A DNA stretch of 64,000 bases, taken from positions 124,001-188,000 of the forward strand of contig JAPJBO010000136.1 in NCBI GenBank assembly GCA_030068145.1. The letters run 5' to 3'. The translations under genes and the position numbers were made by a program. The notes beneath the pieces were generated by a model. That model was not told the DNA's origin, ran no database searches, and saw only the letters and a program-made list of their open reading frames with translations. This stretch comes from Diplonema papillatum (Eukaryota; Euglenozoa; Diplonemea; Diplonemida; Diplonemidae). Shown piece by piece: positions 1,190-63,829 of this stretch; within the stretch, counting starts at the first letter, position 1; every line of letters starts with the position of its first letter.

Positions 1190-3880
1190 GTCAACTTCTA
1201 GTATTGAATCCAAATTTAATTAGAGTTGGTAGTCAACGTCCAATTTCGGATCCAAATTCAATTAGAATTGGTAGTCAACGTTCAATGTCGGATCCAAATT
1301 TAATTAGAATCGGTAGTCAACGTCTGTGCCAAATCCCAAATTTAATTTGTATTGGTAGTCAACGTCCAATTTCGAATTCCAAATTTAATTAGAATTGGTA
1401 GTCAACGTCTAATGTCGGATCCAAATTTGATTAGGATTGGTAGTCAACGTCTGATGCCAAATCCAGAATTTAATTGATAGGCAACGTCCAGTTTAGGATC
1501 CCAAATTTAATTAGAACTGGTAGTCAACGTCCAACTTCGAATTCCAAATTTAATTAGAATTGGTAGTCAACGTCTAATGTCGGATCCAAATTTGATTAGG
1601 ATTGGTAGTCAACGTCTGATGCCAAATCCAGAATTTAATTGATAGGCAACGTCCAGTTTAGGATCCCAAATTTAATTAGAACTGGTAGTCAACGTCCAAC
1701 TTCGAATTCCAAATTTAATTAGAATTGGTAGTCAACGTCTAATGTCGGATCCAAATTTGATTAGGATTGGTAGTCAACGTCTGATGCCAAATCCAGAATT
1801 TAATTGATAGGCAACGTCCAGTTTAGGATCCCAAATCTAATTAGAATTGGTAGTCAACGTCCAACTTCGAATTCCAAATTTAATTAGAATTGGTAGTCAA
1901 CGTCTAATGTCGGATCCAAATTTGATTAGGATTGGTAGTCAACGTCTGATGCCAAATCCAGAATTTAATTGATAGGCAACGTCCAGTTTAGGATCCCAAA
2001 TCTAATTAGAATTGGTAGTCAACGTCTGTGCCAAATCCCAAATCTAATTAGAATTGGTAGTCAACGTCTGTGCCAAATCCCAAATCTAATTAGAATTGGT
2101 AGTCAACGTCTGTGCCAAATCCCAATCTAATTAGAATTGGTAGTCAACGTCCAATTTCCGATTCTGAATATAATTAGAATTGGTAGTCAACGTCTGTGCC
2201 AAATCCCAAATCTAATTAGAATTGGTAGTCAACGTCTGTGCCAAATCCCAAATCTAATTAGAATTGGTAGTCAACGTCCAATTTCCGATTCTGAATATAA
2301 TTAGAATTGGTAGTCAACGTCTGTGCCAAATCCCAAATCTAATTAGAATTGGTAGTCAACGTCTGTGCCAAATCCCAAATCTAATTAGAATTGGTAGTCA
2401 ACGTCCAATTTCCGATTCTGAATATAATTAGAATTGGTAGTCAACGTCTGTGCCAAATCCCAAATCTAATTAGAATTGGTAGTCAACGTCTGTGCCAAAT
2501 CCCAAATCTAATTAGAATTGGTAGTCAACGTCCAATTTCCGATTCTGAATATAATTAGAATTGGTAGTCAACGTCTGTGCCAAATCCCAAATCTAATTAG
2601 AATTGGTAGTCAACGTCTGTGCCAAATCCCAAATCTAATTAGAATTGGTAGTCAACGTCTGTGCCAAATCCCAAATCTAATTAGAATTGGTAGTCAACGT
2701 CTGTGCCAAATCCCAAATCTAATTAGAATTGGTAGTCAACGTCCAATTTCCGATTCTGAATATAATTAGAATTGGTAGTCAACGTCTGTGCCAAATCCCA
2801 AATCTAATTAGAATTGGTAGTCAACGTCCAATTTCCGATTCTGAATATAATTAGAATTGGTAGTCAACGTCTGTGCCAAATCCCAAATCTAATTAGAATT
2901 GGTAGTCAACGTCTGTGCCAAATCCCAAATCTAATTAGAATTGGTAGTCAACGTCTGTGCCAAATCCCAAATCTAATTAGAATTGGTAGTCAACGTCTGT
3001 GCCAAATCCCAAATCTAATTAGAATTGGTAGTCAACGTCTGTGCCAAATCCCAAATCTAATTAGAATTGGTAGTCAACGTCCAATTTCCGATTCTGAATA
3101 TAATTAGAATTGGTAGTCAACGTCTGTGCCAAATCCCAAATCTAATTAGAATTGGTAGTCAACGTCTGTGCCAAATCCCAAATCTAATTAGAATTGGTAG
3201 TCAACGTCTGTGCCAAATCCCAAATCTAATTAGAATTGGTAGTCAACGTCCAATTTCCGATTCTGAATATAATTAGAATTGGTAGTCAACGTCTGTGCCA
3301 AATCCCAAATCTAATTAGAATTGGTAGTCAACGTCTGTGCCAAATCCCAAATCTAATTAGAATTGGTAGTCAACGTCTGTGCCAAATCCCAAATCTAATT
3401 AGAATTGGTAGTCAACGTCTGTGCCAAATCCCAAATCTAATTAGAATTGGTAGTCAACGTCTGTGCCAAATCCCAAATCTAATTAGAATTGGTAGTCAAC
3501 GTCCAATTTCCGATTCTGAATATAATTAGAATTGGTAGTCAACGTCTGTGCCAAATCCCAAATCTAATTAGAATTGGTAGTCAACGTCCAATTTCCGATT
3601 CTGAATATAATTAGAATTGGTAGTCAACGTCTGTGCCAAATCCCAAATCTAATTAGAATTGGTAGTCAACGTCTGTGCCAAATCCCAAATCTAATTAGAA
3701 TTGGTAGTCAACGTCTGTGCCAAATCCCAAATCTAATTAGAATTGGTAGTCAACGTCTGTGCCAAATCCCAAATCTAATTAGAATTGGTAGTCAACGTCT
3801 GTGCCAAATCCCAAATCTAATTAGAATTGGTAGTCAACGTCTGTGCCAAATCCCAAATCTAATTAGAATTGGTAGTCAAC
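1190..3880 (+). repeat. 42/43-bp satellite with 165-bp higher-order block
   Basis: This is a tandem array of a unit containing aattggtagtcaacgt. The main variant is exactly 42 bp (14 codons), so it leaves frames open. A second variant, with ccaatttccgattctg, is 43 bp and shifts frame each time, which is why the apparent ORFs break at regular points. Between about 1366 and 2025 four subunits form a 165-bp higher-order unit repeated four times (matching points near 1366, 1531, 1696 and 1861). From 2026 to 3880 the 42- and 43-bp variants alternate irregularly. The first units (1190-1365) are the most divergent. The frames are satellite artefacts, not genes. Confidence 0.95.
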
Positions 3881-4402
3881 ATCTCGCCTCCACTACCCCC
3901 TTCGGGCCGTCCGCCCCTGGCCCTCCTCCCTCCTCTTCCCCCACCTCCTTTTTACTCATCCTGCCCCCATGGCTTCGCCATGGCTTCGCCCCTTTGCCCT
4001 CCTGCCTCGGCTCCCCCCTTTATTACTCCCCTGCCTTGGCTCACCTTGCCGCCTACCCCAACCCCCAGCCCAAAATCAATTCAATTTTTTGTTTTCACGC
4101 TCGGGGTGGCCCCGAGCCCCAGACCCATATATAAATCACTGTTCGTGTAACTCTTCTTTTCCGGAAGATAACGTTATCTAGTCTATAGTTTTCTTTTCTC
4201 TCTGGCGCTCTTTTTCTCTAGCAAAGCGACTATTGCGACCGACACCACGACCACACCCGTAATGAATGTGATCAAGGGCCCCCCACGTTCTACATGTGTT
4301 GAGCAGGGGTTGCCATGTAGCCCGTACCGGTCTAAGCCTGCAATGTAACTTCCATAAGTACCCGGGTCCGACGGTCCGTTAGTCATCAGCGACATCGGGC
4401 GG
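3881..4402. other. Satellite edge, no gene seen
   Basis: A C/T-rich stretch follows the satellite (3885-4080), then ordinary sequence. The minus-strand frame at 4183-4395 has no family resemblance. Nothing else is supported here. Confidence 0.4.
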
Positions 4403-4624: not shown

Positions 4625-4771
4625 CAGTTTGTTGAACGCTTACGCCCGCCACTAAACCCAGATGTACCTGTGTTTCGTGTGGGCTACAGCACATTTACCT
4701 CCTTTGATCTATCGCAACTGGCAGTTTCCTCAAGCATTTCCTACAAAGCAGGTGCTCATACAAAAAAAAAA
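4625..4771 (+). mobile_element. A-tailed retroposon, copy 1
   Basis: The block runs from gttgaacgcttacgcccgcc to caggtgctcatacaaaaaaa. Related copies lie at 18201-18498, 18500-18757 and 36666-36892, all in the same orientation and all ending in tacaaaa-type A tracts. The A-rich 3' end suggests reverse-transcriptase-mediated spread. No open frame is shared by the copies, so it is probably non-autonomous. Confidence 0.65.
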
Positions 4772-4959: not shown

Positions 4960-5860
4960 TGGATAAGCTCGTGGTAGGGGGGGTGGAGTACCTCGAGTTC
5001 TGCCAGTTTGGCGTCTTTGCTCTGGTTCGTAGCGTCTCGGGCCTGCCCGGAGATGAGGATGTGGTAGCAGCCGTGGGCGAGGGATACCCTCTTGTCCTCA
5101 GGGCGGTATTTCGGCAGCTCGAGGAGCCGGCCCTTGTCGACGAACTTCCGCACCTCGCGCGGCTGCCACTTGCTGTACGGCTCGATGCCCCGCAAGACCT
5201 TGTACGCCAAGTCGACTCCCGTCGCCCGCCACAGCGCCTGTGCGAAGTTCTCGTTGCCCTTCTTGCGCATCGTGTTGAGGAAGGTCTCCGCCGAAAAGAG
5301 CATTGCCGTGAGATCCGTCTCAGCATACACGTCACAGTACTTCGTAGTGCCCGTCAGACTGCTGAGAATCCCCGCTGCGTATCCGGGACCCACGTAGTCA
5401 AAGCGCCTTGAGACGTGCACGCGCGCGCTGCCTGATGTGATGAGGACGATGTTGTCGTGTTCGTTTCCCTTTTCGATCAGCAGCTGGCCTCTGGCAAACT
5501 TCTTCGTCCGCCTCCTCGTCTTGAGGAGGTCTTTGATCTCGGACGACGCGTTCTCGTACCACTCCATTTGCTGGAGGATGTAGTCCGGGTTGCACGACTG
5601 CATCTTCACCTCGACGCGGGTCAGCTCCTTCATTTTCTGCTCCACCAGGCCGACCAGGACGTCGGCCTCCTTGTCTTCGATCAGCCCCTCTTTCTGCCAG
5701 ATCCACACCTTCCGGCGGGCGTGATTCAGCACTGTTCTGGCGGCGAGGGTCGTCTTCATCGCAATACTAGTGTGAGGAGCCCGCTGCGCGAAGGTGACCA
5801 GCTGCTGGAGCACCTCCCTCTTGACTTGCTTCGCGTGCGTTTTGAGCTTGTTCGCCTCGC
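4932..5860 (-). CDS. SOS1-like: Antiporter exon 6: helical region and cyclic-nucleotide-binding-like domain
   Basis: It begins GEANKLKTHAKQVKREVLQQ and includes TVLNHARRKVWIWQKEGLIE, matching SOS1's 'VLNHLIEYIQNLEKVGLLEE'. A cyclic-nucleotide-binding fold follows (FARGQLLIEKGNEHDNIVLI and next strands). The phosphate-binding cassette is atypical: GYAAGIL replaces the usual FGE-x-AL, and TTKYCDV lacks the arginine. Canonical cAMP binding is therefore doubtful, as it also is for plant SOS1. The final eight residues and the stop lie in the element at 4828-4959. Confidence 0.85.
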
Positions 5861-8800
5861 CTGTGCGGGTTCGAGTCGCGTTAGCAGAAAAAGAATCATA
5901 CAGAGCAAGCATCGCAGACGTTCGCTTTCGGCCAAAGAAAGCAAATTGTTCGCGTGCCCGCGGGCCTTTTTCTCCCGGGAAGACGACAAACACAACACAC
6001 GCGACAGACGAAAATTTACTCGCAATGCAATACAAACACATTCTGATTTGGTCTTCGCTTACACCACCGTGTGTTGTTTTGACCTGTCGTGTAGGAGTCT
6101 ACCCGCATGACCTCACGTCCGTTCAACACGTGGTTCGGTAGTTGCAGCACTTGGGATTTCTTCGGTTCTCTGTCTGGTAGCTTCGTCGAGCATTTCCTTC
6201 CAAGCTGGCGCTTATGTAAAAGAATACCGGGGTCAGCGATGTTGTCAATCTTCGCGAGGACAGCGTCGTGTGCCGTCACTAAAGCCATGGCGACGTTGAA
6301 GCCGTACGTCCACTTCTGCTCCCGGTAGCTGCTCTTGCCCAGGCGGTACACCTTGTCGAGGAACTCCTCGAACTTGCCGTAGAGGCCCGCTTCGAACCGC
6401 CAGAACTCCTCCAATATCGACGCGTTCAGCTGCGGTTGGGTGTGGGTAAGGCAGACTTTAAGAAAAAAGGGCGCGGAATACGGGCTTCGCTCGACACTCC
6501 GGAGACGAGCGGGATGCTCTCTGGGTCTGCTGCCCTGTACAGGGTTTTCCGAACCCGAAACAACCAGGTAGCCAACACAATGGGCCAGTCTGCCACATCG
6601 CCGGTCTACAAACACCAGTCTCGGACCTCACGCCAGTCTTGGTACCTCTGGAACAAAGACGGATTGTGCGTGGTAATGATGTGGAAGGTTCCCTGTTTTG
6701 ACCGTCCCACCTCTCGCACTGCAACGATCCTGGCTTCTTTGCTGTGACAAGCTCCTCGAGACAATCTCCTTTTTCATCTCATAATCTACTTGATGAAACA
6801 AATCAATTGTTCGCATGCGAACACTTCGAGGGGACACTGGACACAACCGACTGGCCACCATGTGGGTCAAGAACTTGCATACCAGAATGTCTTCATCGGG
6901 GTTGAGCCGTTCGAGGTGAATTTCCGGGATCTTCTGTGTGCATTGTGTCCGCATTTGAGCTCTTTTCTAAACGCAAAAAGTCGGAACACCAACCTCTGGA
7001 TAAACAACGCCCTATCCACCCCAATTAACTGGCACGTTCCGAACGGTCTAGGTGCAGGTCATGGTCGGCCACACAGGCCACCTACCCAGCACGAGCACAG
7101 TAATGGGGACAACTGATCTCCCAGCGGTGATGTGCAGGGCGACGGGAGACATACATTGTGAGAGGAGAGCGAAGCTATGTTTTCGTCGTTGCCGAGCACA
7201 CGCCCCGTCTCGGGCTGGATCAGCTTCTGCTGCGCGACCGGCATGTTTTCCTCGTTGTAGATCTTCTTTTTGAGCCGCAGGACGTTTCCGGTGCCGTCCA
7301 TCTTGATGTGCAGCGTCCGGCCGAGCGACACGTGTTTGATGGCAACAGTCACGGCGTCAAACGACGAAAGCTCCTTCAACAGCGCCGGAGACGCCGGCAG
7401 CTCGGGAGACCCGGGCATCACAGCGTAGCTGTCGCCGGCGATCGAGTAGTCGGCCTGCGATAGCTGCTCGGCTTCCTTCTTCTTCGCGAGCTTCTCGCGT
7501 GCGTTGATCTCGGCCAGCAAGAACCGCACGGCGTCGCCGTCGAGGAGGCCCTCCTCGTTCTGGTCCCAGACCGACGCGTGCATGATCTTGAAGTAGTGCA
7601 TGACCGCCTCAGCGTGCTGGTCGCCTTCGCCGAGGAACTCGTCTTCGTTGTTGTACGGGTCCTTCATGTCCTCGAAGACCCACTTCTTCGCAACGAGCCA
7701 GTTCACGTCGTACAGCGCGGACTCGATTTTGAGGTCCTCCAGCTGGTCCATCCCGCCGGCCTTCAGCCGCTTGAAGTTGTCGCGCATCATCCTCTTCTTC
7801 GTGTCAGACACCTGAGCGTTGTTGGAACGAGCTTTCTTGTCCTGATACCAATTGACATTACCAGTTCCCGGCCGCAAGCACTGTGCAACGCAGCCAGTTA
7901 CAGCGCGGTGGACGTGTGCCTTCGCGGTTTTAATGTGGCTAGCCTCTCTCTCCTTCAAGTAAGGCACCCCGATCAACCACTGAAACACACTGTGTACGAC
8001 GTCTTTTTAGCCTTCGCAGCGCATGGTCGATTGTTAGTGCTGGAGAAATGAAATGCGGCGGATACCTGATCGAGTTTGAAGTGCTGCACCAGGTTGCGGG
8101 TCGTGACGCCGTTGACGAGAAGCGTCAAGACGACAATCCCCGCGAGGAAGAAGACCAGCTTGTTCTGCAGGATGGTCCTCGGGTCGTTTTCGTCGCGCAT
8201 CGTCAGGCGGTGGTCGCCGGCGATGATCAGCGCGAGCGCGAGGCCGACAGCGCCGCGAAGCCCGCCCCAAGCGACGAGAGCCATGTTCCCCGTGTTCAAT
8301 CGGTAGTCGAAGAAGTTGTTGTACACCACAGAGAACACCTTCACGACGAAGAACCGCACGACGTTGATCACAACGTACACCACCACGAGGTACAAGAAGT
8401 CGATGAACGTGACGTGCGCGAAAGCCCTCCCCGCGACGATCATGCCCGCCATGGTGAAGATCAGCGTGTTGCCGAGGTAAACGGACATCTCCCAGAACTC
8501 GTGCAGCGTGTGGTGCACTTCGGGAGATATGCACTGCTTCCGGTGCGAGAGGTAAATGCCGCAGACCACGACGGCGAGCACGCCGGACACGTGGAAGTAC
8601 GCTTCCGCGAAGAAGAACGTCACGTAGGCAGTCACCAGCGACGTCGTGATCTCGATCAGAGGGTCGTTGAAGACCTTCGACAAGCAGAACGCGGAAACCG
8701 CGCCGCAGACGTATCCAAGCAAGGGGCCGCCCAAGGATACCTTGATGAGCTCCAGAACCAACGAGCCGGCGGATTCTTCGATGTGCCCCGAGCACCCGGC

Positions 8801-11800
8801 AACGGCGGTTTGGAGGATGGTGAAGAACACGATCGCGGTTCCGTCGTTCAGCAGACTCTCGCCTTCGATCAGCGTGCTGATCTGGGGGCTCGCGCCCAGC
8901 TCCTTCAGCAGCGCCACCACTGCGACCGGGTCCGTCGCACTCAGCGTGACGCCGAACAGAAGCGACGCCTCCCAGCTCCAGTCGTACCTGTTCAGAGGGG
9001 GTGCAGTTTCACCACCTGGTCTACTTATTGCGAAAGCCGGCAGGAACTGTTGACTGCACGGTGCAGTAGTAAAGGCTTTCACTAGTAAATTTACTAGTGG
9101 TTTTACAAGTGAAAATGGTTTACAAGTGCCGCTAGTAAATTTTACAAGTGCACTTGTTAAATTTACAAGTGCACTTGTAAAATTTACAAGTGCACTAGTA
9201 AAATTTACAAGTGCACTAGTAAAATTTACGAGTGATTTCAGGTGTTTTGGCAGGTGTTTTGGGGTGAAACAAGAAGAAACTGTGGCAAGTGAAGCACACA
9301 TTCAGAAGAACCGGCTTCTGCAGAGCAAAGTGTCAACCCAGTGCTTGAGAGCCCCGCGCGTAGGCAGACCGCGTCAATCCAGATTTCCCCCACTCCAAGG
9401 CAAACGTGAACACTCGAACACGACCCCCCTGTGGCTCGATGCGGTGGGAACACGGGACAATAACATCGGAAAAGACGGAGCGCGAGGGAGGAGGCGTTCT
9501 TGTCCTCTCAGAGCAGAGTCGTGCACAGGTACGTCCTGGTACCAGAAATAGAGTTGCACGGCAAAAGACGCTCTGGTATCTTGCTTTTTGCCCAGCTTGG
9601 CATCCATTTTTTGGACTGAGTCGTGGGCAACAGTGCGGTCAGCTCTGAAGGGCAATACCGTAAACGGAAATAAGTTGGACCGGACAAAATGGTCCAACTC
9701 ACCTATTTTGGGCTCTGGTGGTCCAACTTTTGTCCGGCCAACTTTTTTCGGGGGGTTCTGTGTACTTGGTGCAGTTTTGCGGCTGGCCAGCACTCGCTCC
9801 ACTCCGTAATCGCGCATGGGTCCGCCGCCAGGAGTTCCCGAACACTGCGCGGTGCTGCGTAACCCGCTGAGTTCCCTCGAGCAACTCGCAACGAAGCTCC
9901 CTGGCCATGGTCCAGCCATTGGTCGCCATGGCCCTGTGGTGGAATCACAAGATCATCCTTGCGTGGAAGGATGTTTGATCGCGACCGGTTGCGGCTGGTC
10001 AGTGCCGAGGGTGGACCAAGATGCGTCCACCGTCTGTCCCATTGCTTTGGTAGAGTGCAAACGCAAAAATGCAGAGTGCAAACGAGGTGGCTCGAGGTTG
10101 GCTGACAGTGAAGGAAAAAGTATGAGCCGCCAATAAACGACGATCTTGGTACGCTCAAGAAGAAACCCAACGCATCTCTCGCGTCGCTACCCATTTGTCA
10201 TGGGACATTTTTTTACCTCATGCCCATCGACCCAACCCCGCCTAAGTGGATACGTGCCTGGGCGGAAATATGTTGGACCGGACAAAATGGTCCAATTGTT
10301 TTGGTCGTCCGCGGTCCAACCTTTGTCCGGTCCAACATATTTTCGGTCCAACATATTTCCGGTCCAACTTTCTTCTGCTTATGGTATGGAAGATCCACGG
10401 GGGGTTTCGAGGGCTGAAGGATTCTTGTCACGAGGGTGCTAGGGGAAGTTGTTTGGGCTGTTGCCGGAAGATTAGTACTTCTTGGGGCTTGGCGGTTGCT
10501 TGGTCGGGTGTTGGGAACGAACGCGGTGTGCCTACTGCTTCATTTTATTGTATCGTTGATTCTTGGGGTGTTGCTGCCGCTGCCGTGCTTGCGTTCTCAC
10601 CTTCTTCTGATGATGCTTGTAAGGCCCATGTTGCCCATTCAGCGCACTTGTCTCCCGGGCAGCTGGCACGCGTAGAGCCACACTCCGGATTACCGCGTGG
10701 TTCCCTTCGCATAGGCGTCCAGGGCCTGCATTCGGGTGGGTGCCCGAACACCGGCCTTTGGTCCGCCTCCGGCTGAAACCATCTAAGGTGCGCTGTGTCG
10801 CCCACTGTCAGAATGTGTTGAGAGGTGGCCTTTTCGTTGCACCCTCCTAAACCACATATCTCCGTTGTGCCGTTTTGTAGAATCGATTGCCCGATCACTA
10901 GCGCACTGCTCCGCTGGACCTCCGGAGTTGGTGCAGCGTCTTGCCGTTGATGCTGCTCTGTGGCGCGTTTAGTCGCTCTCGGAGTCTGCGGTTCCTCTGA
11001 TGCTCGAGGGTCCCCCGTGCAAACCTGCCGATCTCTTCCATCTGCACTAGGCCGGCGGCATCTTGGGCGCATACATATTGATCCACATCAAAGACGCTTC
11101 GTCCGTTCAGCACTCTTCCTGCTGCCTCGTCCGCTTTTTCATGTTTACGAAACCTCACAAATTTCTGACTATTATGGTCGAGCCCGAGTGTTACATTGAT
11201 GGGCTGTGTGGAACTCCTCACTGCGGCAACAACAATGTCAAGATCCCTGCTTGGGCAAAGCCTCCGTGCCGAAGCGTGTCGGGAAGTGGCAGGCATGCTC
11301 GGACCGACTGGAAGTATTCGCAACAGTCAGGTGGCCGCTTCTGCCCAGGGTTCCCCGCTCCCCGCTCACGTCGCCATTGTAGAGTGTGTTTCACTGTTGT
11401 GAATTTGGCACGACACCACTCATAGTGCGTCTCTCTTGCCTCCGTTTCTTCTCATTTTGTAGACGCTTTTCCTCGGCAGCTGTCAGCTAGCTCAACAAAA
11501 GTCTCAGGGTAAAGGGGCTGGACAGTGCGTACAGTTCCAGTTGGGTGCGCGCTGCTCCTCTCATCCTTTTTCAACGGCGCGGCTGTATATCAGGGGAGAT
11601 GATTCCCATCAAGGCTCCCAACAACCCTACCCAACTCAGTCCGAGGGGTAGTGCACATCGACCAAACCTCCCCATTTTTCGATCTCGCAATTTTTCACGC
11701 AAAACCCCCTATAAATCACTGTTTTGGACTGAAAAACACCTGAATTCACTTGTAATTTTTACTAGTAAATTTACTAGTAAAAGGGTCATTTTACAAGTTT

Positions 11801-13974
11801 ACTACTGCACCGTGTGAACTCCATTTGTGCCCCCCCCCCCGCGGATGCCGGAGTCGACTACGGATAAGCAAACCGGTGGCTCCGTTCGGATACATAGATC
11901 TTGTTTCTCCAACGCAGGGCGAGCCGAAAAAAGCCGGTCTACCCTCCCTTGCATGATGTTGTCTGTCACGGTGCAGCTACGTGCAGACTATTGCTGCAGC
12001 TTTTTGCATTCTATCCTATCCTCAGACTATCACAGTGCAGTACGGTGCACCGCGGTCTGTCAGGCCCATCGTTGTCACCGGGATAGTACTGCTTGATGCT
12101 GCAAAAGGGTCGATTGCAAACTCCGCCCCCTGGCACTTCTAAGCTCCTTGGGCCACCCCTAATAGGATTCCCATCCTTCGATGATTTCTTCGCTTTCGTG
12201 CACAACATATATATGGCTTGTAAGCGCTCTCAACAACCGTTTCTGGCGCACATTTGGGCTGGGGAATGCCCAGGATAGGCAGGATAGGTGGAAGAATACT
12301 CTCCCTCTCGCTAGTCTTCCTCGAAAGAGAAAGGGGTGGTGAAGCAAGACCGAAGGTCAGGGGGTCGTTGTTATTGGTGCTGGTTTTGAGGGATAAGGAA
12401 ACATTAGAAATCTTTTTGCGGAGGTCTCGAAGGTCAGGGGGGCGGTAGAATCGGGATGGGGTGGCATACTTGAAGTACTTTGCTGGCAGCGCAGTGAGCG
12501 CGGTGGCGACACAGATACCCGGGCCTGCAAGCAAGATGCAGTGCCCGAGAACTTGTTTGAAGATGAACCAGTCGACCGCGTAGGCGGACTCGAAGATGAG
12601 AACAGGAAGGAAGATGTAGAAGAGGAGATGCGGGTCGATGTGCGCGAGTCCCACGTACTTCTTTAGCTCGCTGAAGGCGTCTATTTGGCTGAGCCCGTCG
12701 AAGGCTGCGCCGGAGACGAAGAGAATGACAGTGTACGGCAGCCGCGAGTCGCTGAAATTGTGCCTGAAGAAGGCCCCCAACGCGCCGATCACGAAGATGA
12801 CGAGGATGTTGTACGGCGGCTCGTGGCCCTCGTGCTCGTGGTGCTCTTCTTCAGACTCGGACACGCACTTGTCCTCGGCCCAGACGCACTCCTCCTTGGC
12901 GTCGCACTCCCACTCGTTGTACTTCTTGCACTCGGTCTCCTCGCAGCGCGTCTGCTCCCACACGCACCCGTCGACAGCGGTGCACGCGCCGTCCACCAGG
13001 TTCGTGCACTCGCTGAGGTACTCCTCGTGCTTTTGATGGCACCCGACTTCCTTCCAGAGGCAGCCGACCAGCGGGTCCACCAGGCAGGTCAGCCGGTCGA
13101 GCGCCGTACAGTCGGTCGCCGTGGCGTTCCGCTCGCAGCGGGTGCCCATCCACTCACACCCGCGCACGGTTCCGGTGGACCCCGAGCAGACCTTCTCGCT
13201 GACGATGCTTTCGCAATGCGGCGCGACGCACTTCGCGGCGTCGATCCACTCGCAGTCCGCGGGGAACAACGCGCACGAGCCTTCCGAATCGTGGGCTTCG
13301 CAGGTCAGCTCACCTGTATGGCAAGTACCTTCCCGCCAGCGACACGCGGGCTCGGCCACGCACGTCGGGTCGGTCACAACCGCCTCGCAATCCACCACCT
13401 CGCACAATCCAGACGTCGCGTTGAACTCGCAGTTTGGCTCCGCGTTGCACGGTGCCGCTGCCAGAGCAACGTCGCACTCGACGCCTTCCTCGACAACGCA
13501 CTCCGCTTTGACGACCCATTCGCACTCGCCCAGGGTTGCATCGCACGCGGTCTCGTTCTTTTTAGAGCACTGGCTGCACCCGTTGTTTACCCAGACGCAC
13601 CCCTGCTTCAGCGCCTTGACGCACGTGTCTTCGATCTTCAGTTCGCACTCCGGCGGTGCGGGTTCTAAGACACAGGCGGATGCTGCCGCTTCCCATTCGC
13701 ACACGGCGATCGCACGGCACGAGGCTTCGTCCTTCCGCGTGACGCAGCCGACGTCGACGCACTTCTTGTCGGCGGTGACCCACGTGCACGCGTGGGTGCA
13801 TTCCGCCTCTTCGAGGTCTTTGCAGTAGTCGGCATACGGCCGCGTCGACGGCTCCCACACGTTGTTCTTCCGGCAGTAATCCGGCCACGAGCCGACCTGC
13901 GGCTGCGGCGCGGGCGCCGGCGGCGCGTTCGTCGCCGCCAGGCAAACAGCGGCTAGCAGCACCGCCGGCCGCAT
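4932..13974 (-). CDS. SOS1-like: SOS1/NHX7-type Na+/H+ antiporter with Cys-rich ectodomain and ubiquitin-like insert
   Basis: The model has six exons: 13974-12470, 8987-8066, 7811-7155, 6933-6883, 6429-6228 and 5860-4932. All junctions are GT-AG, phases agree, and the total is 1,422 codons. The predicted order is signal peptide (1-16), Cys-rich ectodomain (about 30-370), acidic/His-rich linker, and an exchanger domain from about 388 with SATDPVAVVALLKELGAS (518-535), EGESLLND (543-550) and GGLRGAVGLALAL. These closely match plant SOS1 and keep the ion-site Asp521 and Asn549-Asp550. A linker helix region follows (810-925), then a ubiquitin-like fold (about 963-1040), the SOS1 helical region, and a cyclic-nucleotide-binding-like domain (about 1215-1310). 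The likely role is proton-coupled Na+ export across the plasma membrane or a vacuole. The ectodomain and the ubiquitin-like insert are not part of plant SOS1. The C-terminus is uncertain because the stop codon lies in an inserted element. A further 3' exon spliced at GAG/GTACTC (near 4990) is possible. Confidence 0.92.
5861..6227 (-). other. Antiporter intron 5 with introner-like repeat
   Basis: This is a 367-bp GT-AG intron. Its 5' half (6036-6225) is a copy of a dispersed repeat also present at 59140-59395 and, inverted, at 41484-41742. The repeat's terminal motif (ttttacataagcgccagc) begins two to four bases inside the 5' splice site, so intron start and repeat end nearly coincide. Confidence 0.75.
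6228..6429 (-). CDS. SOS1-like: Antiporter exon 5: SOS1-type helical region
   Basis: The acceptor CAACCGCAG/CTGAAC and donor CCCCG/GTATTC give phase 0 in and phase 1 out. The text LNASILEEFWRFEAGLYGKF and following helix (WTYGFNVAMALVTAHDAVLA) corresponds to the helices that in SOS1 follow the 'NYYKFL' segment. The phase-1 end fits exon 6 exactly. Confidence 0.85.
6883..6933 (-). CDS. SOS1-like: Antiporter exon 4: 51-bp microexon completing the ubiquitin-like fold
   Basis: It is bounded by CACACAG/AAG and CTG/GTATGC and encodes 17 residues, KIPEIHLERLNPDEDIL, phase 0 on both sides. KIPEIHLERL sits where ubiquitin has 'KESTLHLVLRL', its last strand, which supports both the exon and the fold. 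Leaving the exon out would keep the frame, so it could be alternatively spliced. The polypyrimidine tract before it is weak. Confidence 0.65.
7155..7811 (-). CDS. SOS1-like: Antiporter exon 3: cytoplasmic linker and most of the ubiquitin-like fold
   Basis: The exon starts VSDTKKRMMRDNFKRLKAGG, the usual position where the exchanger's last helix meets the tail. Residues 877-912 (MHYFKIMHASVWDQNEEG on) match the SOS1 tail motif that ends in its 'SVDEALD' helix. A Ser/Pro-rich spacer (930-957) leads to the ubiquitin-like part. TLHIKMDGTGNVLRLKKKI aligns with the first strands and helix of ubiquitin, and MPVAQQKLI with its 'IPPDQQRLI'. The donor AAT/GTATGT at 7154 is strong, phase 0. Confidence 0.88.
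7812..8065 (-). other. Antiporter intron 2 with dispersed repeat
   Basis: This is a 254-bp GT-AG intron. Plus-strand positions about 7948-8038 match 29134-29230 and, with more change, 15650-15740 (ctacgtctttttagcctgca core and a gattgttagtact end). On the gene strand the dispersed copies carry tactaacaatc followed by ttgtgcag, which resembles a branch site plus a 3' splice site. Confidence 0.75.
8066..8987 (-). CDS. SOS1-like: Antiporter exon 2: core of the exchanger domain
   Basis: The exon carries the most conserved part of the transporter: the Asp-Pro of SATDPVAVV (residues 521-522), Asn549-Asp550 of EGESLLND, the HVSGVLAVVVCGIYLSHR helix, and the GGLRGAVGLALAL helix. It ends at NGVTTRNLVQHFKLDQ. 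The acceptor AACAG/GTACGAC supplies the last base of Lys502. The donor is CAG/GTATCC, phase 0. About seven further membrane segments can be read by eye. Confidence 0.95.
9665..9755. repeat. Foldback block, copy 1
   Basis: The left arm gttggaccggacaaaatgg is followed after a short loop by its inverse (cttttgtccggccaac). The same structure occurs at 10263-10375, so it is a small palindromic repeat nested in the intron element. Confidence 0.7.
10263..10375. repeat. Foldback block, copy 2
   Basis: The arm atatgttggaccggacaaa is inverted as tttgtccggtccaacatat, and the end motif 'ggtccaacatatt' is then repeated once more. It is related to 9665-9755. A longer hairpin than copy 1 is expected. Confidence 0.7.
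12470..13974 (-). CDS. SOS1-like: Antiporter exon 1: signal peptide, Cys-rich repeats, first membrane segments
   Basis: The start is the first ATG of the frame and is followed by a hydrophobic leader (PAVLLAAVCLAA). Residues 34-370 hold 45 cysteines in eleven units of about 30 residues with the pattern C-x(3-9)-C-x-W-x(4-8)-C plus one linking Cys. Examples are the Cys sets 59/63/72, 86/92/101 and 357/363/370. The aromatic is Trp in ten units and Phe184 in one. NAT/NFS sites suggest glycosylation. A His/Glu-rich linker (372-386) leads to the first exchanger helices, ending in ALPAKYF. The donor is AA/GTATGC at 12470/12469, phase 2. Confidence 0.93.
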
Positions 13975-18200: not shown

Positions 18201-18757
18201 AATACTCGAGGGGCTGCCTTGTGTTTACTTCGAAGGAGGGGGAGAAACAATACTACTACAAACACCGCGCCCGACCTGTCGAGTTGCTTTGGCATTTTGT
18301 TGAACGCTTTACGCCTGCCACTACCAGTGCAGCACCCTACCTGTGCCTCGTGTGGGCTACAGCACATTTACCTCCTTTGATATTGGAATATTGTTGTGAT
18401 AGTGGGGAGCCATCGGCATGCCGATGGCTCCCCACTTTGACATTTCGCAACTGGAAGCCGCCTCAAGTATTTCCTACAAAGCAGGTGCTTATACAAAAAC
18501 ACTCGAGGGGCTGCCTTGTGCTTACTTCGAAGGAGGCTAGAGGGGGAGAAACAATACACCTACAAAGTGGGTCCTTTTTGTTGAACGCTTACGCCCGCCA
18601 CTGAGCCCAGGTTCACCTGTGTTTCGTGTGGACATTTACCTCCTTTGATCTTTTGCAGCTGGCAGCCTCCTCAAGTATTTCCTACATTGATCTTTTGCAG
18701 CTGGCAGCCTCCTCAAGTATTTCCTACAAAGCAGGTGCTTAAACAAAAAAAAAAAGA
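18201..18757 (+). mobile_element. Two tandem copies of the A-tailed retroposon
   Basis: Copy A (18201-18498) and copy B (18500-18757) both begin actcgaggggctgccttgtg and end caggtgctta followed by an A tract. Copy A contains an insertion with a 36-bp perfect palindrome. Copy B has an internal duplication of the segment gatcttttgcagctggcagc. The family also occurs at 4625-4771 and 36666-36892. Confidence 0.7.
18401..18436. repeat. 36-bp perfect palindrome
   Basis: The arm agtggggagccatcggca is followed at once by its exact inverse (tgccgatggctccccact). It interrupts the retroposon consensus between cctttgat and the gcaactgg segment. A cruciform or hairpin is expected. Confidence 0.9.
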
Positions 18758-18819: not shown

Positions 18820-19026
18820 ATGCGTTGGCAGCGATCGTTTTCCACCTTCTCCGCCGATGGGCGGTGTGAAGCACGGCAACCGCACTCTGTCGACAGCGAG
18901 CTGGGGAAATCCGTGGAACGGCGCTCCGGACTTTTTGCCGCCGCCGCCCCCGTGGTGGAACTGTTCACCAGATGTTGAGGTCCACGTGCACGTTCTCGTA
19001 CTCGGAGAGCTCCTTGCGCACGATGT
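18820..19026 (-). pseudogene. Extra copy of the SLC30A9 3' end (outer)
   Basis: The block has the same minus-strand text as the end of the transporter gene (KELSEYENVHVDLNIW and stop) plus the following 3' flank, but nothing upstream of it. It is a truncated tandem duplicate. The join to the next copy falls inside the codons for DIVRKE. Confidence 0.85.
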
Positions 19027-19298
19027 CGATGGGTGGTGCAAAGCACGGAAATCCGTGGAACGGCGCTCTGGACTTTTTGCCGCCGCCGCCCCTGGTGGAA
19101 CTGTTCACCAGATGTTGAGGTGCACGTGCACGTTCTCGTGCTCGGAGAGCTCCTTGCGCACGATGTCGCGCAGACGCGCGGTTTCCCGGACGAAGGCCAG
19201 GAGGAACTCAGCGTCGTTCCGCATGAGCCAGTCTTCGGCGGCCGTCTCGCAGCCGACTTGGCTGATTTCGTTGAAGAGCGTCGTGGCCTCTCCTAAGA
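19027..19298 (-). pseudogene. Extra copy of the SLC30A9 3' end (inner)
   Basis: It matches about the last 64 codons of the transporter (from ATTLFNEISQVGCETAAEDW to HVHLNIW and stop), with small changes (YENVHVDLNIW has become HENVHVHLNIW). It is truncated at 19298, where the flank of the functional copy begins (gcgttggcagcgatcg). Confidence 0.85.
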
Positions 19299-19441: not shown

Positions 19442-21028
19442 TCACCAGATGTTGAGGTCCACGTGCACGTTCTCGTACTCGGAGAGCTCCTTGCGCACGA
19501 TGTCGCGCAAACGCGCGGTTTCCCGGGCGAAGGCCAGGAGGAACTCAGCGTCGTTCCGCATGAGCCAGTCCTCGGCGGCCGTCTCGCAGCCGACTTGGCT
19601 GATTTCGTTGAAGAGCGTCGTGGCCTCGAGGGACGGGACCCTGTGCAGCCCGAGCCGCCGCTTCGTGATGGCCTCCGCGTTGTAGTGGATCTCGGCCTTG
19701 AACCGCACTGTGTCGAAGCTGATGACCTGCGTTTTGACGTCATACACCTCGACGACGATGTCGTCCGCATGCAGCTTCTCGATCACCGTCGTCACCCTCT
19801 CGACGGGCAACGTCGCACCGAGAAGCATAGTGCCCGAACGAGACAAGAGCCCGATAGCCACGGCGCTTACTATCGACCCCATGAGTATCGAGGCGCAGAC
19901 CTCGACGATAGCGGATCCCAGCACGTACGTCGCTATCACGCCAGACATGCCCACCAGCACCCCGTAGACGCCGGCCCGGGCTTCGAGGAATGTGGCCTCG
20001 GACATGATGTCCTTCGGCTTGTGCCGGATCGAGCGCTCCTGCATCTCGTTCCGGGCGGTCCTCATCGCGAGACCTTCCATCGCGAGCGAGAGCAGCAGGA
20101 CGCTCCCCGACAGCATCGAGAGATACGGGTCCATCGGCGTCGTGATGCACAGGTCGACCAGCTCAAGCAGCTCGTAGGCCCCCACGCACACGGGGATCAC
20201 GCCGCCCACCAGCAGCAGCCCGACGAACGACCGGTCCGCGCAGATGTGCCGCAGCGGGGCGTAGCCGTACGGGTGGTTGCTGTCGGCCTTCTTCTGCGAC
20301 GACGTGATGCTGTAGTACCTGTAGAGGTAGTTCGACACGTCGGCCAGGGAGTGCATCGCATCCGCGAATAGGGCGAAGGACCCTGTGTACTTCGACGCGA
20401 GGAGCTTCCCGCCGAAGATGACTAGGTTCGAGCGGAGGCCCTGCACGATGCTTTTCTTGCCCTCGACGGTTTCCGACGACGGGTTGGTGTACCAGCGGTC
20501 GGTTCCCGTGAAATTCATGCCGTAGATCCTGCGCGCCGCCTCTTCTCCGGGCCTTCCCTTGAGGAGCAGCGCCTTGTACCGCTCGATCAGTTCTTTCTCC
20601 GTTTTCGTCTCAAGAGCGAGGGTGACGACGTCGGACAGCCAGTATAGCTCGTACGCAGTGGTGTCATCGCGGTATGGGTTCGGCGCCTCGATGGTCTCGA
20701 GTGTCTCCAGCTGCTCCTTCGTGAGGCCGAAGTGGCGCCGGGCGCGGTTGCCTGACACGGTGATGTAATCGGGCTTTCGGAGCTGCGATATGAACTCGTG
20801 CACCTGCTCCTGCTTCGTCATCCCCTTCTGCGGCGACGTGCTCACGTGCTGCACGGGCTTCGCCTGGCTGCCGCACCGCCGCCGCTGCGCGACGCACGCC
20901 CGCCCCCTCCAGCGGCCCGGGGCCAGCAGCAGGCCCCGCCGGGGGCCGCATGAAAAAGCCGTCGCGGCCGCCCGCCGAAGCATCGCGCGCCGGCACTGGT
21001 GCACCCCCCTTCCCGCTGCTGCCGGCAA
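19442..21028 (-). CDS. SLC30A9: SLC30A9 (ZnT9)-like mitochondrial zinc transporter
   Basis: A single 528-codon frame. The first about 60 residues are Arg/Ala-rich without acidic residues, as in a mitochondrial presequence. Residues 71-170 (FGLTKEQLETLETIEAPNPY and on) match the N-terminal domain that is specific to SLC30A9 proteins. A cation-diffusion-facilitator domain follows with TGSFALFADAMHSLAD, including the metal-site His226 and Asp230, then HPYG (252-255). The C-terminal segment VRFKAEIHYNAEAITKRRL and the end RKELSEYENVHVDLNIW match the SLC30A9 tail closely. The family exports Zn2+ from mitochondria. The TM5 site reads LEARAG where animal ZnT9 has LEDTAA, so the second metal site may differ. 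Start: first ATG in frame, in a GC-rich context. Partial duplicates flank it on both sides. Confidence 0.93.
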   Translation of the reverse strand: MPAAAGRGVHQCRRAMLRRAAATAFSCGPRRGLLLAPGRWRGRACVAQRRRCGSQAKPVQHVSTSPQKGMTKQEQVHEFISQLRKPDYITVSGNRARRHFGLTKEQLETLETIEAPNPYRDDTTAYELYWLSDVVTLALETKTEKELIERYKALLLKGRPGEEAARRIYGMNFTGTDRWYTNPSSETVEGKKSIVQGLRSNLVIFGGKLLASKYTGSFALFADAMHSLADVSNYLYRYYSITSSQKKADSNHPYGYAPLRHICADRSFVGLLLVGGVIPVCVGAYELLELVDLCITTPMDPYLSMLSGSVLLLSLAMEGLAMRTARNEMQERSIRHKPKDIMSEATFLEARAGVYGVLVGMSGVIATYVLGSAIVEVCASILMGSIVSAVAIGLLSRSGTMLLGATLPVERVTTVIEKLHADDIVVEVYDVKTQVISFDTVRFKAEIHYNAEAITKRRLGLHRVPSLEATTLFNEISQVGCETAAEDWLMRNDAEFLLAFARETARLRDIVRKELSEYENVHVDLNIW

Positions 21029-21302
21029 ATCGTCGCCACCGCTCCCCCGCTCCCCCCGCCTTTTAGAGTTCTAGTTCGCTTGAGAAAACTTGTGTTGGAC
21101 TGTTTTCTGGTGTTACGAAAATCTAAGTCTCTGATCGACTGCAACTGGTAAAGGTCTAAATCGCCGATATGACATGCCCCAGGATCCTTTTTTTGGTTTG
21201 GGTCTTTTCCGCCCCATTGTTCAGCCTAAACCAATATATTTGGGCAAGATGTGGTTTGGGACCTAGGTGCTAGTCTGGTACCGCTTGGGTCAATTCAGGG
21301 TC

Positions 21303-24070: not shown

Positions 24071-25634
24071 TCTGTGGCGACTCTTCGCGGGCTGGCGCTG
24101 CGGCTGCCCACGCCGCCGCTCGCAGCCCTTTCCTCTCCCTCCCCGCGGTCCCTAATTATGATGAACCTGTGCCATGTTTACACCTGCGTACTTCATGTGC
24201 GCACCGGTGGCTTCATACTTCAGACACACACCCGTGACTCCATAAGTGCACCTACTCCGTGTTCGCGGCTCCATACGCAAACTGGTGGCTCTATATGTTC
24301 GCCATGCTCACACCTATTACTCCTGTTTTTGACGATTCCGAGCCGAGCCTGTTGAGATTATTCCGATCTTTATAAGTCCCTGTTCTTGACTCTCCTGCGA
24401 ATCTGTTCCTCTAAGCAAACTTGTTTGAGCACCTTCGGTGCGTCTTGGGGGGTCGAGCTGAGGACCTATGGAACAATGGATGTTCCTTACAAGTCGCGCG
24501 CAGTCCCCTTAAGAAGTACGGGTAAGCAGCAAGCCGCCGATGCCAAAAGACACCCCCTACAACGACACGCCCACCTATTCAATGGTCGAGATCTCGTTCG
24601 TTAACGGCATCAACCTGACTAATCACTCCACCAACCAGGAGCGACCACACAATTCATCGAGAGAGAGCTCTCAATCTGTCAATCCTTGAGATCGTCCTGA
24701 CCTAGTAACCTAGTAAAATTCCCCGTGTTGAGTCAAATTAAGCCGCATACTCCACGCCTGGTGGTACTGATTTCATCGATTTCAAGCACCCTGCTTGGGA
24801 GTCGTAACGCCTACGCGGTTCTGGCCCATCTGTCTTGTAATCTGGGTTCAGTTCCGAGTTTGGTTTCCTATCCGAGGCTATCGAGCACTGGTTCGGTTTC
24901 GGGTTGAGGTTCGGTTTCGGGTTCGGTTCTGCCACCATCTCCTCACCAACCGAACCCTTGGGTTCGGGTTCGATTTCGGGTTTGGCTCGCGTGGCCCGTC
25001 GTGGGCGTCAACTCGCGACACGTGATGTCTCCATGTCACTGCCAATGTCAGCGTGGAGCATGGCAGTGCACTCAAACGCCCTTAACTTTATGCGGGTTGC
25101 GCGCATTGCGACTGCTTGGTTTTTATGAACACGTTCTCATGACTTTTGCTCCTGATGTTTAGCCACATGCAATGTGTGGGGAAACAGAACCGACCTTCTG
25201 ATCATGATCGCTTGTCAATTTGCCATACGTCCAGGATTTGGGCTCAGGGTAGTGCGGTCAACGAAAAACAGTGTCGTTCGAACGAACGGATGCGGAAGTT
25301 CCGTTTTCTTCTTGCACGACATTTTCACGCCCGTGGGGGCCCCCGTAGGTCATCTCGCCCGCGCCGCAGAAGTGTCCACCCGTGATAGAAAGGGCGTGAG
25401 ACGCGATTCGCGTTCCTATTTTAATTTTTTTTCCTGAATTCGGAATAAAGAGAAGAAATAAAAGAAAAGGATCGGACTGGAGCGTGGTATCGAACGCAGT
25501 CACGATCTGGTGAAGGAAATGTTCCGAGAGTGGAGAGGAAAGCGAGAGAAGGGCGAGAGAAGGTGAGGGGGCAAAACGAAAGAGGAAGGGGGGTGGGGGG
25601 GACGAGGCCCCCTTTTTCTTAATAGTACAGTTGT

Positions 25635-59416: not shown

Positions 59417-60559
59417 CTAGCATGCGACGGACGTCCTGTGGGCGCGCGTGTGGTGGAGCTTGTTGGAGATGACCTCCTTGAAGCGCCGGTACTGCGTTTT
59501 GACCAAAAGCTGCACCGGCGACCGGTTGAAGTCGGCGGGAGGCGACGACGGCTTCATGATGGGGGACAGCGGCGGGTTGGGCGGGGACGACGGAGGCGAG
59601 GAGATGAGGTTGTCGTCCGGGATGGGCGCCTGCAGGAGGTTGAAGGTGTTCGGGAGCGTCGTCAGCCACGACGGCACCGAAGGGGCGACCGTCAGGTCGG
59701 CCGGCGTATCGTACGCCGTGTTCGCGGAAATACGCCTCGTGGCGGCGTTCGACGCAACCGTCGGTGCAGCACACCCGCTCTCCGCCGACGAGCGGCGTTC
59801 TCCAACGGCCAGCAGCATCGCGGAGAACTTCAGCTCCTCTGTCGGCACCGCCGCGCTCGCCAGCAGCGACGCAGCCAGGTCTTCGGTCCCGCAGCTGAAG
59901 TTAAAGTCGATCGCCTGCGCGAACGTCCGCACCATCGTCGACAAATCATCGACCTCTACACCCCCCGGAAACGCAACCGCACTCACGCTGATGCTCGCGG
60001 GCGACGCCTTGTGGGCAGCGATGGCCAAGGCCGACAGAACGACGCGGTGCGCCGTGTACGGCGTGATGTGCAGCGCCGTTTTCTGCTCGAAGCGGTCGAG
60101 GTACACCATGGTCATCGCCCACGTCTTCAAGTCGGTGAAGTAGAGCCACAACCGCATGACGTACTCGGCTATAGACACGTCGGGGGGCGTGACGCTCTCG
60201 AAGCAGCTGAAGGGGGACTCATTGTCTTCGTCGTCGACGGGCGACTGGGCCGTTGGGGAGTTTGACGTGAGGACGAATTCCAGCCGCTCTGCAAACGGCC
60301 GAAGCCAGCCGGGGAGGTGGGCAACTGGGTCTGTAGCGTCGCGCTCGGTCTCCGGCGTCGGCGCCGCGTCCGGCAGCGTGAGCCCGTCCGAGAACACGCG
60401 GACCGCGGCCGTCGGGCTGCCGCCGCGGCGCGCGGCACCCGCCGTCGTCGTCGGCGACGTCACTTCGGCGCCGCACGCGTCGCCCCACAGCGCGTCGACC
60501 TTCCGCAGCACCTCCGCCGGCGCGCCCTCCCGCATCGTCACGGCATCGCCGATGCACAT
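59417..60559 (-). CDS. PHO80/P-type cyclin with Ser/Pro-rich tail
   Basis: An intronless frame of 380 codons. Residues about 84-230 match the PHO80-like cyclin box: VSIAEYVMRLWLYF, then MVYLDRFEQKTALHI, then YTAHRVVLSALAIAAHK. The family's GG element follows (FPGGVEVDDLSTMV, then AIDFNFSCGTEDL). Such cyclins bind PHO85/CDK5-like kinases and act in phosphate sensing or cell-cycle control. The partner here is unknown. Residues 100-120 form an acidic insert before the first helix, and the C-terminal 150 residues are Ser/Pro-rich with several SP sites (LISSPPSSPPNPPLSPI), likely kinase targets. Start: first ATG, MCIGDAV. A DIRS element ends 284 bp upstream. Confidence 0.87.
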   Translation of the reverse strand: MCIGDAVTMREGAPAEVLRKVDALWGDACGAEVTSPTTTAGAARRGGSPTAAVRVFSDGLTLPDAAPTPETERDATDPVAHLPGWLRPFAERLEFVLTSNSPTAQSPVDDEDNESPFSCFESVTPPDVSIAEYVMRLWLYFTDLKTWAMTMVYLDRFEQKTALHITPYTAHRVVLSALAIAAHKASPASISVSAVAFPGGVEVDDLSTMVRTFAQAIDFNFSCGTEDLAASLLASAAVPTEELKFSAMLLAVGERRSSAESGCAAPTVASNAATRRISANTAYDTPADLTVAPSVPSWLTTLPNTFNLLQAPIPDDNLISSPPSSPPNPPLSPIMKPSSPPADFNRSPVQLLVKTQYRRFKEVISNKLHHTRAHRTSVAC

Positions 60560-60842
60560 TTTCCCTTCGGCGCTCGAAACGCTCTTTTTCTACGAACTCG
60601 AAAACCGACCGGTTTCCTGAAGCGGGTGCAACAGGGCTTCGATCAAAGAAGGTGCCTCTTTTTGTAGGGTGGGCGTATTCTTTTGTTTGTGGGGGTGTGT
60701 TTTCGTCGAGATTCTTCGATGGTGTGCGGGTTTTTTATTTCTCCTTTTTTGCTTCCTTTTGTCGCTTCTGTTTGCTTGTTGTTAATTTTTTAAGAGTGCA
60801 AGTTCACTTAGAGATCCGGAGTTTGTATAGTGTTTTAGTGCA
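60560..60842. other. Cyclin 5' flank
   Basis: The short space between the cyclin start and the end of the DIRS element should contain the promoter. It is T-rich on the plus strand and has a copy of the agttcacttagagatccgga repeat (60789-60822). No promoter motif can be named. Confidence 0.45.
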
Positions 60843-61265: not shown

Positions 61266-62162
61266 TCATCCCACTCGGGTCCGAGCGGTGTAAAAGTGGG
61301 CGAGCGAGACCGGGTTGTAGAAACGAACCGCCTCAACACACCCCGGGTCCCTTAGGACTTTCTCACCGTAGTGGGTCACCATATCTCCCGACGCCCAATC
61401 ACCCATCTTCTGAACCTGCATGGGGTCCATACCCGACTTCAGAAGGGTGCAACAACCACCTATCCGGGCACTGTGGGTTAGAAAACGCGCCCTCGTCCGT
61501 CCCGAGCCGTCGCCGTCATTCAGCGGCTGCAGGATGCCTCGCTTCCCCGCGGTCCCGCGAAGGGCATCCCTAAACGAGGCATAGACGGGAAACGGGCACA
61601 AGAGGCGTCTCCCCTTGGCCATGAGTTTCAGAAGGGAAAAGACCTCGACAGGGCAGTACCGAATGGACTCTGGCACGCCGTCGGGTCCGTTAGGCAGGAG
61701 CAAAGGGGGCAACAGATTGATGCTTTCAAAGGTGAGGTATCTACTGCACGTCCCTTTTGCCTTGGACATAGTCCATTCAACCCTCACGCCGCCCTCGCCG
61801 ACGCGGACATCCTCCGTCAGGATCGACTGCATGCTGGATGCCCTTAGGAGAGTAAAGTGCTCACCCAGCAGCTGCAGCGCCGCGCCGTACTCGCCAACGG
61901 TCCGCACGAAGCCGAAGATCTGACGGAACTGTGCGGCGCCTAGGGGCTCGCCACTCTCAGGGTCAGGCGCCGCTCTCTTCAACGCTCTGATCATCCTGCG
62001 GATGTCGTCGGCAGGATCCTCGAGAACCCAACCGTCAGCCGTGTTCTCGGCTAAGATGGCGTTGATGATGTTGTGGGGCGCCTTGTACGCCTCATCCTCC
62101 ATGCCGGACAGGTATCCGCCGAAGGTCTCAAGCCTCCGGACCGTTGCCGGGTATGGCTGCAC
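61266..62162 (-). CDS. Tyrosine recombinase of the DIRS element
   Basis: The catalytic set is present: Arg107 (LLRASSMQSILTEDV), Lys136, His230-x-x-Arg233 (THSARIGG), Trp256 (GDWASGD) and Tyr265 (VTHYGEKV), numbered from the GTG that opens the frame after a stop. The protein would insert circular cDNA. The N-terminal part is probably in a different frame upstream (RRALKRALEEFPRCG, 62308-62200, and the MNAESF frame from 62528), which indicates a frameshift near 62170-62200 or programmed shifting. Confidence 0.85.
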   Translation of the reverse strand: MQPYPATVRRLETFGGYLSGMEDEAYKAPHNIINAILAENTADGWVLEDPADDIRRMIRALKRAAPDPESGEPLGAAQFRQIFGFVRTVGEYGAALQLLGEHFTLLRASSMQSILTEDVRVGEGGVRVEWTMSKAKGTCSRYLTFESINLLPPLLLPNGPDGVPESIRYCPVEVFSLLKLMAKGRRLLCPFPVYASFRDALRGTAGKRGILQPLNDGDGSGRTRARFLTHSARIGGCCTLLKSGMDPMQVQKMGDWASGDMVTHYGEKVLRDPGCVEAVRFYNPVSLAHFYTARTRVG

Positions 62163-62588
62163 GCCACAGGCTCCTCATGCGAGCGCGGGCCGCATCGGGG
62201 GAATTCCTCGAGGGCACGTTTCAGCGCCCGCCGCTGGGACGTCGACCTCTTCTCGGCTGGTGGTACGGGACTGCCCAGCACAGGAGAGCTTTGATCGCGC
62301 GCTCTCACCAGGTCCTGTACCCGGCGGTACAGCTCTGGGCATAGGCACCGGCACTGCCCACATCGGAAGCTTCTCCAGTGTCAGAAGGGTCGTATCGTCC
62401 GGGAGGCTTCGGAGGCTTCTACACACGTCCCTCCACGCTTCCTCATTGAACGAGGTCCGCAGAAACGCGACCCGCCCAATCATCTTTTCTGGGGCAGGGT
62501 GGGCGGGAAGAAAAGATTCAGCGTTCATGTTTGGTAACTTTCGTTCCCTGCCGGGGCTTTACACGAAATTAGCTGACATTAAACTACC

Positions 62589-62912: not shown

Positions 62913-62995
62913 AATGGCACGTATCCCAATGGACCTTGGCGTGAGAACGAACGAAAGGAGCGCCGCAGATGCCCTGCGTCTTCTCTTTCCTCCTC

Positions 62996-63805: not shown

Positions 63806-63829
63806 GTGAATGAGACCCTGCCTCCTGGG

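Follow-up and report, generated by a model that had tools for sequence, protein, structure and literature searches.

A putative ubiquitin-like domain inserted in the tail of a predicted SLC9C/SOS1-class Na+/H+ exchanger of Diplonema papillatum

Can the tail of a Na+/H+ exchanger harbor a ubiquitin-like domain (Ubl), and if it does, what might such a domain do there? The question is raised by a gene within a 64,000-nucleotide stretch of the Diplonema papillatum genome (hereafter the window), in which a sequence-only reading had recognized a ubiquitin-like fold inside an SOS1-type antiporter. The gene is located on the minus strand and was modelled from the sequence as six exons (Table 1) that have consistent phases and five of whose six donors start with GTAT. 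No stop is encountered in the 1402 residues of the spliced product, which is incomplete at its 3' end, and a putative further exon lies beyond the window (C136:123641 downwards, i.e. L023 from 7641), where it is preceded by CAG and is similar to the tails of paralogs (E 1.7e-6 and 1.9e-5). The region between exon 6 and this exon contains a tandem array (1210-3884) of 42-bp units, which can also be read as units of 127 or 338 bp.

The identity of the encoded protein follows from several domains and motifs. Exon 1 matches the Pfam family PF00999 over aa 399-500 (29.2 bits, E 5.4e-7) and exon 2 contains the motifs ATDP (from 518), LLND (547) and GGLRGAVG (743), so that the characteristics of a CPA1 Na+/H+ exchanger, namely PF00999, an ND motif in TM6 and an Asp in TM5, are all found. 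Exon 6 matches the Pfam family cNMP_binding (E 3e-8). Judged by its sequence, the gene encodes a CPA1-type Na+/H+ exchanger that belongs to the SLC9C/SOS1 class and has a cyclic nucleotide-binding domain (CNBD) in its tail. The N-terminus is rich in cysteine: aa 30-370 include 45 Cys, and in each module the second Cys is followed by Trp or Phe. No Pfam family was matched by the region of the modules (aa 59-370). The Cys-rich region of the two paralogs at C141 appeared by eye to be of another kind.

Table 1. Positions in the window of the exons, domains and residues discussed (aa, residues of the spliced product)
Feature	Position	Strand	Description
Exon 1	12470..13974	-	ATG at 13974; Cys-rich N-terminus and first exchanger helices, aa 1-501; gene model
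Cys-rich region	12865..13800	-	aa 59-370, 11 modules C-C-W/F-C; regex count
Exon 2	8066..8987	-	exchanger core, to aa 809; PF00999 1.5e-46
F608 to E614	8651..8671	-	at SLC9C1 F294 and E300, linker helix TM7; ungapped alignment to 8xq7
Exon 3	7155..7811	-	aa 810-1028: tail helix region, 46-aa linker, ubiquitin-like core, single open frame
Ubiquitin-like domain	7155..7355	-	aa 962-1028; Pfam match 7173-7322
Putative microexon KIPEIHLERLNPDEDIL	6883..6933	-	51 bp, weakly supported candidate for strand 5; acceptor acacag, donor gtatgc; phase-preserving length
Exon 5	6228..6429	-	aa 1046-1112; gene model
Exon 6	4992..5860	-	coupling helices, CNBD, start of second beta domain, to aa 1402
K1190	5628..5630	-	at SLC9C1 K939, ICH7 lock lysine; ungapped, 1184-1190 vs 8xq7 906-912

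The remainder of the window holds genes and repeats of diverse kinds. On the minus strand we found a cation efflux family protein (19445-21070; PF01545, 6.6e-21), a cyclin with a proline/serine-rich tail (59420-60589; PF08613, 5.9e-11), a tyrosine recombinase match (61269-63961; PF00589, 1.6e-7) near a sub-cut-off RNase H-like match (PF17919), and a lone fragment of the eukaryotic SSU rRNA (24396-24743; model positions 1188-1491 of 1831, 84.2 bits), the latter being the only sequence of the window that reaches a gathering score in Rfam. The recombinase region presumably resembles a DIRS-type retroelement. A 140-bp repeat is present in 1.9 copies at 18905-19168, and a short sequence with a translation of about KYLRRLPAAKDQRR recurs at four places (4690-4760 on the minus strand, 18645-18728, the end of L022 and L023 7249-7330), perhaps as part of a mobile element.

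The case for ubiquitin homology is built on exon 3, whose 219 codons are flanked by AG and GT with phase 0 at both ends and whose one frame is shared by the exchanger tail and the Ubl; the exon matches the tails of the paralogs at C40 (2.0e-10) and C141 (1.3e-9). Compared with PF00240, for which the curated gathering cut-off is 25.4 bits, exon 3 alone scored 25.5 bits, i.e. 0.1 bit above that cut-off (E 1.1e-5; residues 164-213, window 7322-7173), and the Ubl region together with the downstream exons scored 28.4 bits (E 1.4e-6). The ubiquitin-like motifs that the sequence-only reading had quoted are encoded by this exon, and a splicing artefact is unlikely in the case of the Ubl core because the exon alone already exceeds the cut-off, be it by so little. 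A six-frame scan of the genome recovered the same domain (C136:131170-131322; 27.4 bits, E 7.1e-4). The match spans model positions 8-62 of 72 and therefore leaves strands 1 and 5 outside; in the strand numbering that we assume for the ubiquitin model it covers strands 2 to 4 and the helix. The proposed likeness to ubiquitin 'strand by strand' consequently holds for these elements, which have profile matches, but for strands 1 and 5 it is a matter of inspection by eye.

Comparisons within the genome point in the same direction. The Ubl scored 17.5 bits against the ubiquitin of the same genome (top of 20,000 shuffles: 12.3) and 21.3 bits over 35 residues against a profile built from 19 Ubl loci of that genome and ubiquitin (top of 20,000 shuffles: 8.7), and hhalign against the same-genome Ubl domains gave 89% over 50 columns with 28% identity, a value that 20 shuffles approached to at most 7.5%. 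The hhalign pairing places QKLIQPETGRVL opposite QRLIF--AGKQL, and by these alignments Ile44 is retained. The C-terminal GG of conjugatable modifiers is absent after the Ubl, where the reading continues; as far as can be read from the sequence, the domain is internal and non-conjugatable. We consider homology of the Ubl to the ubiquitin family highly probable, and on that basis it would adopt a beta-grasp fold; that the exchanger tail and the Ubl form one real protein we hold with nearly the same confidence.

Whether the Ubl was inserted can be read from the paralogs in the same genome. PF00999 was found at 18 places, two of which are exons of the window gene. The comparison comprised two paralogs at C141 and one at C40 across the site and those at C79 and C122 on its left side only; C93, C26, C139 and the two places each at C980 and C174 stood outside it, and C29, C399, C14 and C6 appeared by eye to be other exchanger types. 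Homology to the paralogs stops after aa 907-926 and clearly returns at aa 1079-1082, within exon 5, and between the two blocks the window protein has 155 residues vs 23 in C141a. BLASTP aligns five paralog segments on the left, at most over aa 804-941, and C141a and C141b again from aa 1082. The right-hand block of C40 is secure from aa 1079 in a global alignment; just before that residue the programs disagree, since C40 MITVSLLDKYW is placed opposite the start of the Ubl in the global alignment and opposite exon 5 by tblastn. The possibility that the paralogs contain a degenerate Ubl was rejected: the same-genome Ubl profile gave -1.0 bits for C40 and -2.0 to -2.8 bits for the four other segments, and as all five are below zero no Ubl is seen there. 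The domain is therefore absent from the three paralogs that could be read across the site (C141 twice and C40).

In the entire genome 72 matches to PF00240 were found, and by-eye comparison indicated that the one in the window gene is the sole match at an exchanger, within genome scans for PF00240 and PF00999 that scored only the best candidates and that intron-split domains can escape. Both families also occur on C14 and on C40, more than 30 kb apart, and within the reach of these scans a second Ubl-bearing exchanger was rejected. The combination has been seen in one genome; no viral relative was found among 26 pattern stretches in one viral contig scan, and no report of a Ubl in such exchangers was present among the literature matches listed. 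Taken together, the curated profile, the shuffles, the profile-profile comparison and the paralogs back the proposal that a Ubl has been inserted into a SOS1/SLC9C-class exchanger.

The comparison with solved structures shows which exchangers are closest. Eight sequences that bear the name 'sperm-specific sodium proton exchanger' score highest (402-406 bits; 8otq, 8pcz and 8u6z are among the SLC9C1 structures), and some of them are sea urchin SLC9C1 according to two Nature papers (PMC10620092, PMC10620091). The next matches are OsSOS1 (8iwo; 294-295 bits) and exchanger 7 (7y3e), i.e. AtSOS1 (274-277 bits). The remaining sperm-specific entries we take to be sea urchin SLC9C1 as well. A tail profile made from the window gene without its Ubl and three paralogs likewise scored SLC9C1 at 157-158 bits, OsSOS1 at 73 and AtSOS1 at 61. 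The term 'SOS1-type' in the sequence-only reading is right about the class but incomplete, as SLC9C1 is closer (405 bits vs 294 for OsSOS1).

In SLC9C1 the corresponding part of the tail contains a voltage sensor. In the numbering of 8otq, aa 382-863 of the window protein pair with SLC9C1 65-537 and aa 1085-1276 with 833-1025; a phmmer block between aa 864-915 and 568-621 is at chance level (0.4 bits). With the tail profile, a further block is aligned at 8xq7 547-635 (16.4 bits, E 0.022), which ends at about native residue 662 (the offset between 8xq7 and native SLC9C1 is 27), and the profile match restarts at 8xq7 803-804, i.e. native 830-831. The intervening stretch is described as comprising S1 (E698), S2 (Y743), S3 (D777) and the S4 charges (K800-K815), with ICH3-ICH4 preceding S1 and ICH5-ICH6 directly following S4 (PMC10620092). 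The Ubl would thus lie in the interval where SLC9C1 has its voltage sensor, the left boundary of this interval being weakly placed; beside the Ubl, the window protein has a linker of 46 residues and a further region there. A voltage-sensing domain S1-S4 was not found in this interval, which the alignments skip in the urchin protein, and the alternative that a voltage sensor occupies the site of the Ubl was rejected because no 19-residue segment within aa 864-1112 rises above 1.22 on the Kyte-Doolittle scale. In the case of plant SOS1, the match of OsSOS1 to the tail profile without the Ubl runs through as a single stretch (415 residues over 390 positions), which implies a tail without an insert of this size and agrees with the earlier suggestion that the Ubl separates two helices that are adjacent in SOS1. 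Plant SOS1 is further characterized by a C-terminal autoinhibitory tail that phosphorylation activates.

The window protein accordingly shares its exchanger core, coupling helices, CNBD, second beta domain and the positions F294, E300 and K939 with SLC9C1, and differs from it by the Ubl in the interval of the missing voltage sensor and by the large Cys-rich N-terminal region. A further difference, we assume, is the CNBD cassette in exon 6 (GYAAGILSSLTG, aa 1272-1283), from which the usual Glu is missing. The cassettes of the two C141 paralogs read GYTAGLMSILTG and GYSAGLISILTG, so that the absence of the Glu is common to these three exchangers; as a consequence, cyclic-nucleotide control may be absent, i.e. 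the window exchanger may have lost it. With plant SOS1, which is described as having a helical tail, a CNBD-like domain and a beta-CTD (PMC10372031), the protein shares these elements (the end of its beta domain being encoded by the putative exon beyond the window), the exchanger core and the lack of a voltage-sensing domain, all at the level of sequence similarity. A Pfam search of the six sequences scanned, which did not include the exon beyond the window, revealed neither a UBA nor a protease domain. Rad23, parkin and USP14, which we take as examples of multidomain proteins with an integral Ubl, likewise contain a ubiquitin-like sequence without GG within a larger protein; in the window protein, by contrast, the Ubl sits in the tail of a membrane exchanger.

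What the Ubl might do is suggested by how such tails act. ICH7 of SLC9C1 is reported to keep the transporter inactive via Lys939 with Glu300 near TM7, and S4 movement has been proposed to release this hold (PMC10620092); autoinhibition by the intracellular domain has been described for SOS1 too (PMC10372031). By homology, the tail of the window protein would hold its exchanger back as well, and the Ubl would follow the first tail helices in the chain and precede the coupling helices, which lead on to the autoinhibitory lock. A partner that carries a ubiquitin-binding surface, or an intramolecular contact, would bind the Ubl and shift the coupling helices, and the lock K1190-E614 (equivalent to K939-E300) would be strengthened or released, such that exchange is set by protein binding in place of voltage. 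Our best overall explanation, to which we assign a probability of about 0.45, is that an internal, non-conjugatable Ubl serves as a docking module in this SLC9C/SOS1-class exchanger; the specific mechanism, in which the Ubl acts on the coupling helices, is more tentative. Ubl homology, the single frame with the tail, the insertion relative to the paralogs and the presence of the lock residues are all observed in the sequence; a beta-grasp fold, a partner, the sense in which exchange is affected and a mechanical coupling like that in SLC9C1 are presumed, and roles in recruitment, turnover or autoinhibition are hypothetical.

The sequence-only reading had assigned strand 5 to the 51-bp microexon, with splicing as a possible switch. 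This assignment was not confirmed. With equal start, the PF00240 score is 28.3 bits with the microexon, 27.9 bits when it is skipped and 27.5 bits upon read-through, i.e. its contribution is +0.4 bits. Comparable cassettes occur in 10% of the shuffled introns with a GTATG donor and in 53% with the looser GTAT/GTAC donor, the real intron contains two (GTATG) and four (GTAT/GTAC) cassette readings, two of them ending at 6883, and an alternative acceptor at 6966 yields a cassette of 84 bp. The GC content of the microexon (0.51) is that of the introns (0.50-0.54) and below that of the five other exons (0.59-0.64), skipping it also keeps the phase, and the boundary of exon 5 lends it no support, as homology need not return exactly at exon 5. 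On the other side, its acceptor (acacag) and donor (gtatgc) are like the other sites of the gene, and in the alignment of the Ubls its EIHL lies, by eye, close to the columns of strand 5. Usage of the microexon and a splice switch are thus weakly supported, and it is a real though not a probable alternative that the microexon is unused, in which case the insert would be without strand 5 and unable to fold by itself, or would fold in some transcripts only.

Two other readings are unlikely. The Ubl could be a tag for turnover or trafficking that, like the UBL of Rad23, recruits the proteasome or endocytic ubiquitin receptors and thereby sets the amount of exchanger in the membrane. At E up to 1, rad23 is the one NCBIfam family that the Ubl region matches (residues 16-66), with 21.5 bits and E 1.1e-4, far below the cut-off of 207.3; Ile44 is retained with Leu8 replaced by Val (read by eye), and the linker (916-961) carries two SP motifs. 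Nevertheless, the position of Val70 would be a Glu if the register of the microexon is right, the scanned sequences contained no UBA domain as noted above, and a tag would not usually be located inside a helical tail. The Ubl could also be a passive insertion without regulatory role in a variable stretch of the tail, which is about as doubtful: the paralogs differ in length at the site and SLC9C1 accommodates a whole voltage sensor in the interval, from which it follows that the site tolerates inserts, yet the Ubl core still scores above the curated cut-off of its family. Finally, a chance resemblance or a gene-model artefact without any ubiquitin homology would accord with the 0.1-bit margin of the exon alone and with the weak phmmer matches to single ubiquitin chains (E about 0.005-0.02, the best ubiquitin fusion reaching 0.0009, and much lower values belonging to tandem ubiquitins of which each copy is insignificant), but is very improbable given the two sets of 20,000 shuffles, the hhalign result with its 20 shuffles and the frame shared with the exchanger tail.

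The docking module is our preferred reading. SLC9C1 is described as the only known transporter that is regulated by voltage-sensing domains (PMC10620092). If another exchanger of its class has a domain of a different kind in the interval of that sensor, the tail would be a modular control hub. More speculatively, the interval could be a reusable sensor socket in SLC9C/SOS1 exchangers, which holds a voltage sensor in SLC9C1, nothing in SOS1 and here a Ubl that responds to proteins of the ubiquitin system, possibly with a splice-controlled strand 5. The protein would offer a natural domain swap for probing how the tail keeps the transporter inactive, and through it ion exchange would be linked with the ubiquitin system in a non-covalent manner.
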